A stretch of 42,530 bases of DNA from assembly GCA_029255365.1 (NCBI GenBank), contig JAPFQF010000004.1, positions 1 through 42,530 on the forward strand, read 5' to 3'. The notes under the pieces were generated by a model. The model saw only the letters and a program-made list of their open reading frames with translations. It made no database searches and was not told the origin of the DNA. The translations under genes and the position numbers were made by a program. Every line of letters begins with the position of its first letter. Position 1 is the stretch's first letter. The stretch is from Candidatus Nitrosopumilus sp. (GTDB taxonomy: Archaea; Thermoproteota; Nitrososphaeria; Nitrososphaerales; Nitrosopumilaceae). Of the stretch, positions 3,099-42,530 are shown one piece after another.

Positions 3099-6000
3099 TC
3101 ACTCGTATACGTCGTAGGGCTCAATTGGATCCTTTGTGGTTTTGTTGTCCCTCAGCCACTCTAGTGTCTTTACAAAAGAGTCTGCCAGCTCGATGGTGGT
3201 CAGCACAGGAATTCCCAGCTCGAGGGACTTGCGTCTTATCAGGTACTCGTCATCAAGCATTCCAATATATTTTTCCAATGTTGATGTGCTTGGAATGTTT
3301 ATGATGAAGTCAATCTTTCGCTCGTACAGCAAGTCAGAGATGTTTGGTTTTCTCTCAGGCTCTGAAATCTTGTGTACGATTTCAACCTCGCCGATTCTCT
3401 CCTTGAGGAATTCCGCAGTATGCTCCGTTGCCAAAATTTTGAACCCCAGATGCTTGAGCTTCGCTATGGTTGCAACCAGTTTTTCCTTGTTTTGCGCGCC
3501 GCCCACTGTCACTAGTGCCGATCCCTTGTCCGGAAGTGTGTAGCCGACGGACGTCAGTCCTTTTGACAGCGCGTCATAGAAGCTGTTTCCAAAACATGCG
3601 GCCTCGCCAGTAGATTGCATTTCAACACCCAGCGAGATGTCAGCTCCCTCCAGCTGCATGAATGAGAATTGGGGGACCTTGATTCCATAGTTTTGAATTT
3701 TCTGCCACTTGTTTTCAGGTATCTTGGGAAGGGGCTTGTCAAGGATTGCCTTGGCGGCAAGGGAAATCAGGTTTGTCTTGACCAGCTTTGACACAAAGGG
3801 CATCGACCGTGACGCCCGAATGTTCAGCTCTATCACATAGACGTGATCATCATGGACTAGAAATTGCAGGTTGAACGGCCCCTTGACGTTAAACGTCAGC
3901 GCAATCTTTTTTGAGTATTCGTTGATTGTGTCAATTGTTTTATTGCTCAGACGCCATGGCGGAATCACCATCATGGCATCCCCGGAGTGAACCCCTGCGC
4001 TGTCAATGTGCTCGACAATTGCGCCAATTACAACTTCCTTGCCGTTACTTATTCCGTCCACGTCGACTTCAAGCGAGTTTAGCATGAATTTGGAAATTAC
4101 CACGGGATGATCAGGGGACACGTCAGTTGCCTCCTTGACATATGTTTTCAGCTGCTCCTGGGACCAGACAACTTTCATTGCGGCGCCGGACAAAACGTAA
4201 GAAGGCCTTACAAGAACAGGAAACCCCACCTCAAGGGCAAAAGACTTTGCCTCGTTCAGATTTGAAAACGCCTGCCATAGCGGTTGCTGTATGTGAAGCT
4301 TGTCAAGCTCGGCACTGAACTTGGAGCGGTCCTCTGCCCTGTCAACATCTTTTGCACTTGTACCCAAGATGTTTACTCCGTGTTGTGAGAGGCCGAGAGT
4401 CAGGTTGTTTGCAGTCTGGCCTCCAACGCAGGTAACAATTCCCCTCGGATGTTCAAACTCGGTAATGTCCAAAATTCTTTCCTGTGTCAGTTCCTCAAAA
4501 TACAGTCGCGTGCAGATGTCATAGTCAGTCGAAACTGTTTCGGGATTGCAGTTTACCACTGAGACGCTTTTCTCCCCGTTTTCCTGAAGGCCCCAGACCA
4601 TGTTAACGGTGCCCCAGTCAAATTCAACGCTGCTTCCAATTCGATACGGCCCTGCGCCGAGTACGATAATTCCATTTTCATCCAGAGGGACTGCAACGTC
4701 GTTGGAATGGCCGCCGTATGTCAGATAAAGATAATTTGTAACTGCCGGCCATTCTGCTGCCAGCGTATCAATCTGTTTCACTGAAGGAATTACGCCCAAT
4801 TTCTTTCTCAAGTCACGAATTTCATCAGGAGTTTTGTCCTTTGCACGTGCAATCTGCTTGTCTGAAAAACCTGTCTTTTTGGCCTCCCACATCAGCGACT
4901 CGTCAAGTTCTGAATCCTTGAGTTTCCCCTCAACTGTTACGATGTTTTGTATTTTTTCTATGAACCAGGGATCAACAGTGGATAATTTGTAAATCCTTTC
5001 GACTGAAATTCCCATCTTTAAAGCAATTGCGACATGGTAAAGGATATGATCATCATGGTGAGATAATTTGTATTCGATTTCCTCCTCGGTGTATGTAATT
5101 CCGTTTGCACGATTTAAAACCAATCCGTCATTTCCAATATCCAGCATTCGAATTGCTTTTTGAAACGATTCCTCAAAGGTTCTGCCAATTGCCATTACTT
5201 CTCCAACCGATTTCATTGTAGGCCCGAGTCGCCTGTTTACTAATTCAAATTTATCAAAATCCCATCTGGGATGTTTGCATACGACGTAGTCAAGTGACGG
5301 CTCAAAGCACGCGGTGGTATTTTTTGTAATTCTGTTAACAAGCTCTGATAAATTATAGCCGAGTCCGATTTTTGCAGACATGTACGCCAGCGGATACCCC
5401 GTAGCTTTGCTTGCCAGGGCGGACGAACGTGAAAGCCTTGGATTGATTTCAATTGCGACGTACTTGTCAGATGCAGGATCAAGGGCATATTGGATGTTGC
5501 ATTCGCCAACTATTCCGACATGCTTTGTCGCGCGCAATGCTGCAGAACGCAGCATGTGGTATTCGTGGTTGTTAATTGTCTGCGACGGTGCAACCACAAT
5601 GTTGTCACCGGTGTGAACCTTCATCGAAAGCACGTTTTCCATATTGCATACTATGACATTGTTTCCGTCATAATCCTGCATCACCTCGTATTCGATTTGT
5701 TTCCAATGGCCGATGTATTCTTCCACCAGTACCTGTCCGACAAGGCTTGCCTTGATGCCCCGCTCTACAATCTCGTGCAGCTCGATTTCGTTGTATGCGA
5801 CGCCGCCGCCGCGCCCTCCAAGCGTGTATGCGACACGGATGATTACGGGGTAGACAAGCTCCTTTGCAGCCTTTTTGGCATCCTCAAAATTAGTCACAGT
5901 CTTGCTTTTCAGGACGGGGACCCCGCATTCTTTCATGGAATCCTTGAAAAGCTGCCTGTCCTCGGTTTTCTTTATGCCTGCAATCTGGGTTCCCAGTACG

Positions 6001-42431: not shown

Positions 42432-42529
42432 GGACCGGTCGTCTAGTTTGGTTTGGATGACGCACTCACACTGCGTAAGGAATTAACTTCCCGCAAAGGT
42501 CGTGGGTTCAAATCCCATTCGGTCCACCA
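42432..42529 (+). tRNA. tRNA-Val: tRNA-Val(CAC) with 20-nt intron in the variable loop, CCA encoded
   Basis: Acceptor GGACCGG (42432-42438) pairs with TCGGTCC (42519-42525); discriminator A42526; CCA is encoded at 42527-42529. D-stem GTCT pairs GGAT (two G-U). Anticodon stem ACGCA (42460-42464) and TGCGT (42472-42476) enclose CTCACAC, anticodon CAC at 42467-42469 (reads GUG, valine). T-arm GTGGG-TTCAAAT-CCCAT (42502-42518). Between anticodon stem and T-stem are 25 nt instead of 5; removing 42478-42497 leaves the AGGTC typical of archaeal tRNA-Val. The mature form would be 75 nt plus CCA. Confidence 0.9.
42478..42497 (+). other. Non-canonical tRNA intron (after position 44)
   Basis: The segment forms GGAA (42479-42482)-TTAAC-TTCC (42488-42491). 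Outside it TGCG (42472-42475) can pair with CGCA (42492-42495), leaving a 3-nt bulge TAA on one side and AAG on the other. This is the bulge-helix-bulge rule of archaeal splicing endonuclease; cutting after the second base of each bulge removes exactly 42478-42497. The outer exon helix is weak (about 2 bp), so the motif is a relaxed one. Confidence 0.75.
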
Positions 42530-42530
42530 T

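Follow-up and report, generated by a model that had tools for sequence, protein, structure and literature searches.

A tRNA-Val(CAC) gene of Candidatus Nitrosopumilus with a predicted bulge-helix-bulge intron at the non-canonical position 44/45

The tRNA-Val(CAC) gene of a Candidatus Nitrosopumilus sp., an ammonia oxidiser from the marine archaea, raises the question of how a valine tRNA with an overlong variable region could give rise to a normal mature molecule. The gene lies at the end of the stretch of DNA analysed here (hereafter the window; 42,530 nt of contig JAPFQF010000004.1), in which it is the one tRNA called (ARAGORN, 42432–42529; Rfam RF00005, 42432–42526, 46.3 bits), and a search of this Nitrosopumilus-like (Nitrosopumilaceae) genome found one tRNA-Val(CAC) gene, namely that at window positions 42432–42526. 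None of its four stems (acceptor, D, anticodon and T) is disrupted, and on the 3' side of the anticodon stem positions 39–43 read UGCGU. This strand ends with U43 (42476) and the T-stem starts at 42502, so that 25 nt, AAGGAATTAACTTCCCGCAAAGGTC, separate them instead of the usual five. Judged from sequence comparison and folding, the tRNA-Val(CAC) gene is almost certainly functional, present as a single copy and interrupted at position 44/45 by a non-canonical archaeal bulge-helix-bulge (BHB) intron, which would be spliced by EndA and RtcB. The conserved gene body stops at 42526, since the terminal CCA is not kept in relatives. The parts of the gene, with the basis of each assignment, are:

42432–42477, plus strand: exon 1, comprising the acceptor 5' strand, the D arm and the anticodon arm, with A44 as its last base (ARAGORN, Rfam)
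42467–42469, plus strand: anticodon CAC, within exon 1
42472–42475, plus strand: 5' strand of the central BHB helix, UGCG (tRNA positions 39–42), pairing with 42492–42495 in 88 of 89 versions
42476–42478, plus strand: 5' bulge UA^A, predicted 5' cut after 42477 (fold; cut rule of PMC2738675)
42478–42497, plus strand: predicted 20-nt intron AGGAATTAACTTCCCGCAAA at tRNA position 44/45 (BHB fold; missing in intronless relatives)
42479–42491, plus strand: intron hairpin GGAA-UUAAC-UUCC (compensatory changes in all four pairs, 87–89 versions)
42492–42495, plus strand: 3' strand of the central BHB helix, CGCA, within the intron (fold and covariation)
42496–42498, plus strand: 3' bulge AA^G, predicted 3' cut after 42497 (fold and covariation)
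42498–42526, plus strand: exon 2, comprising G45–C48, the T arm, the acceptor 3' strand and the discriminator A73 (ARAGORN, Rfam)
42527–42529, plus strand: encoded CCA, not conserved in relatives

The archaeal EndA target consists of two 3-nt bulges with a 4-bp helix between them (PMC6379350), and this is the arrangement found in the 42472–42498 region of the precursor, where the bulges UAA and AAG flank the helix UGCG:CGCA and the intron folds into a GGAA/UUCC hairpin, giving a strict BHB. The full precursor folds with a minimum free energy (MFE) of -34.0 kcal/mol (z = -2.97), with pair probabilities of 0.60–0.92 in the central helix and 0.64–0.78 in the intron hairpin. When the 20 nt were shuffled, an in-register 4-bp central helix together with an intron hairpin of at least 3 bp arose in 71 of 200,000 shuffles. 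Cleavage is predicted to fall between the second and third residues of each bulge (PMC2738675), a rule that yields exon 1 up to 42477, the intron at 42478–42497 and exon 2 from 42498. The predicted spliced product is a full class I cloverleaf with a 5-nt variable loop, AGGUC, as in a standard mature tRNA, and the intron lies outside the canonical position 37/38.

Further evidence for this fold came from 89 distinct exon-intron versions among relatives, in which the bulges and helices are kept while the intron loop and length vary freely (16–48 nt; 16 to 25 nt among the versions, plus a single intron of 48 nt in L118, from genome G106 of genus g13). The first pair of the central helix (C1) is U-A in 79 versions, A-U in six, G-U in two, U-G in one and mismatched in one, the A-U and G-U forms coming from several genera with a changed anticodon-stem position 39. 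Thus, C1 is paired in 88 of the 89 versions (shuffle maximum 79). The hairpin pairs H1–H3 are paired in all 89, through G-C/A-U/C-G exchanges (shuffle maxima 84, 84 and 78), and H4 in 75 of 87 (shuffle maximum 56). None of 2000 shuffles, which were made without correction for relatedness, reached the observed pairing at C1 or at H1–H4, and the changes at C1 and in the hairpin are spread over several genera. Pairs C2–C4 are near-constant and therefore little informative; likewise, the exon-side outer helix (C38-G46, A37-U47) has just 2 bp, almost invariant, and is uninformative for covariation.

The same set of versions bears on the exact position of the cuts. A real intron might be cut one base away, at 43/44 instead of 44/45, or be processed via a register in which U39 forms a wobble pair with G45 rather than pairing with the intron A. 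Either is very unlikely, even though the two registers have equal computed energy, with the U39-G45 register being the one drawn in the precursor MFE, and even though cuts at 43/44 and 44/45 would yield identical mature RNA here, since the intron ends in A, as does exon 1 (A44). As for the first variant, 19 of the 89 versions have an intron that ends in G, T or C, so that moving the cut by one base would cost these relatives the conserved A44; together with the BHB rule, this favours the 44/45 cut. As for the second, a change of U39 to A comes with a matching intron U in several genera, and comparison of the sequences thus leads us to favour the canonical 4-bp register over U39-G45.

Regarding the distribution of the intron, the tRNA query matched 85 of 95 same-genus genomes, mostly over nearly its full length (nine same-genus genomes were without a full-length match), and had no match in the plasmid collection. 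Where read, the same-genus matches have an intron at this site between exons that are nearly identical, while the core of the intron varies. Across the family, 19 of 22 genera sampled have an intron at this site (g1–g4, g7–g18 and g20–g22), and the predicted 44/45 intron of tRNA-Val(CAC) is hence a trait common to most of its family. An intron-spanning pattern found 107 matching stretches in named public genomes; among the matches listed (80 of the 107) are records labelled Nitrosopumilus, Nitrosarchaeum, Nitrosotenuis, Nitrosotalea and Cenarchaeum, which assigns the window to this group. Intronless tRNA-Val(CAC) genes, in which the junction runs straight into GGTC, occur in genera g6 and g19 and in part of g9 (loci L105, L108–L110 and L143–L147), g9 having a mixture of intron presence and absence. 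Besides, the gene is uninterrupted in families f2 (g23), f4 (in part), f6, f7, f9, f10, f11, f14 and f15 of the same order or class. By their sequence, these intronless genes are natural equivalents of the predicted spliced product. The original prediction of a 20-nt intron in the variable loop is thereby upheld at 42478–42497, where the fold, the covariation and the intronless relatives agree, as is its use of the BHB rule to place the cut at 42477/42498 and obtain an AGGTC loop, since the intronless relatives join exactly there. Its further statement that a tRNA fold is attainable only once the 20 nt are removed went too far, given that both ARAGORN and Rfam model the unspliced form with a 25-nt variable loop.

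This acceptance of the unspliced form, together with the hairpin present within the insert, could speak for a mature tRNA that retains the 20 nt as a long, class II-like variable arm. We consider this very unlikely. Long variable arms belong to serine and leucine (and bacterial tyrosine) tRNAs, not to those for valine. A single class II arm does not account for the 10 nt that stay unpaired between the 3' side of the hairpin and the T-stem, and a variable arm would leave the conserved CGCAA within them without a function, whereas in the BHB it pairs with the exon, with which it covaries. Nor would the insert of a class II tRNA be expected to be missing from orthologues in other genera and families, and in the intronless relatives that share the CAC anticodon the variable loop is 5 nt long. 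On the basis of the covariation and the intronless orthologues, we rejected the reading as a class II arm.

Alternatively, the gene might be a decayed tRNA copy, as its location at a contig end could suggest, all the more since integration into tRNA genes is common in Thaumarchaeota (PMC6563490). Yet no other tRNA-Val(CAC) was found in the genome, all stems are intact, the 46-nt exon 1 is identical in most same-genus relatives read, and the insert evolves with compensatory changes. A decayed copy is thus exceedingly improbable, and we discarded it on the grounds that a single gene was found for the CAC anticodon and that its exons are intact.

Other interruptions of the same gene were observed in more distant relatives. 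Genome G290 of family f4 (L391) has a 24-nt insert at 44/45 whose sequence is unlike the family intron; a strict BHB can be paired by eye (GGCG:CGCU, CGGGG/CCCCG), yet is absent from the local-segment MFE. In G279 of family f2 (L392), the variable loop of tRNA-Val(CAC) is enlarged by a 13-nt insert that may represent a minimal relaxed intron, while G296 of family f3 has an intron similar to the family's. In most f3 genomes (e.g. G262, G266 and G271), no tRNA-Val(CAC) was recognised by DNA or pattern searches, and the gene may be absent there or differently interrupted. A looser tRNA-Val(CAC) pattern gave mostly chance matches, G290 excepted. The family-wide intron, the inserts of G290 and G279 and the mixed genus g9 tentatively hint at 44/45 of tRNA-Val(CAC) as a recurrent intron-gain site in ammonia-oxidising archaea and their relatives, although we regard this as rather doubtful. 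If true, tRNA-Val(CAC) would represent a natural test of archaeal tRNA intron gain and loss. Either way, the intron-bearing, intron-free and differently interrupted orthologues form a tidy data set on these processes, which could also serve to test for constraint on an anticodon stem that an intron uses for its own pairing.

As for the enzymes that would be needed, the same genome encodes two EndA paralogues (tRNA intron endonucleases; 178 and 199 aa), both with N- and C-terminal EndA domains, as well as the ligase RtcB, that is, genes for a putative broad-specificity, heteromeric EndA and for exon ligation. The 178-aa protein (the alpha subunit) aligns almost end to end with the Sulfolobus tokodaii (2cv8) and Aeropyrum pernix (3p1z) subunits and keeps the catalytic Tyr (FAVY), His (DHAP; Ala in entry 3ajv) and Lys (VRKQ), whereas the 199-aa paralogue lacks the catalytic His. 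In the alpha subunit, the residue aligned with A. pernix K44 is also a lysine, which we take to be the important lysine of the crenarchaea-specific loop. From these genes, we infer that the two paralogues assemble into an (alpha-beta)2 enzyme; Thaumarchaeota endonucleases are of the alpha2-beta2 type (PMC4090602).

The BHB intron is thus supported by the fold, the covariation among 89 introns, intronless homologues that are joined at the junction, and the EndA and RtcB genes, and we infer that it is excised in the cell. Before splicing, bases 39–42 (UGCG), on the 3' side of the anticodon stem, would pair with CGCA near the 3' end of the intron, and the intron would close its own hairpin, giving rise to the strict bulge-helix-bulge. 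Following its assembly, the (alpha-beta)2 endonuclease would cleave each 3-nt bulge between its second and third bases and release the 20 nt, the exons would be ligated by RtcB, and the anticodon stem would re-form, leaving a mature tRNA-Val(CAC) with a normal 5-nt variable loop, AGGUC.

How novel is such an intron? The tRNAscan-SE 2.0 publication (PMC8450103) describes 107 non-canonical introns in Thaumarchaeota and a model specific to the phylum that was trained on them, in line with the original prediction, which had referred to known introns outside 37/38 in this group. Like the 44/45 intron, these are short, lie outside 37/38 and have BHB splice sites, and we see no difference in kind. 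In Caldiarchaeum subterraneum, introns occur at non-canonical sites including the V-arm (PMC3293823); the lineage differs, and the likeness is one of site. Given these two published precedents, the assignment of the predicted intron to an ordinary, known kind of archaeal tRNA intron is well supported. The passages covered by the literature search held no mention of a 44/45 intron in tRNA-Val(CAC). Canonical archaeal introns share the BHB logic and the enzymes with the 44/45 intron, but sit in the anticodon loop (37/38), and five introns of the anticodon loop are predicted by ARAGORN in the same genome, in tRNA-Met(CAT) (40 nt), tRNA-Leu(CAA) (21 nt), tRNA-Tyr(GTA) (35 nt), tRNA-Ser(GGA) (15 nt) and tRNA-Gln(CTG) (15 nt) (loci L063, L065, L066, L067 and L069). 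The 44/45 intron matters mostly for the annotation of tRNA-Val(CAC): a general tRNA finder takes the gene for a tRNA of 98 nt whose variable loop looks odd, and would thus give an incorrect mature sequence.

The surroundings of the gene gave rise to a few additional observations. The contig ends (window position 42530) one base past tRNA-Val(CAC), and contigs of relatives (L195, L197, L049 and others) also stop inside or beside this gene; L032 and L033 have identical tRNAs followed by different sequence immediately downstream. Such contig ends and differing downstream sequences are as expected for a site of integration or rearrangement. In L196, 28 bp of the tRNA 3' end recur (3694–3721) some 880 bp downstream of the complete gene (2724–2815), resembling the scar that an integrated element leaves at its attachment site. 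Of the stretches matching the intron-spanning tRNA-Val pattern, L299 (CATQHD010000001.1) is titled as an uncultured Acidimicrobiia bacterium, suggesting a mislabelled or mixed archaeal contig.
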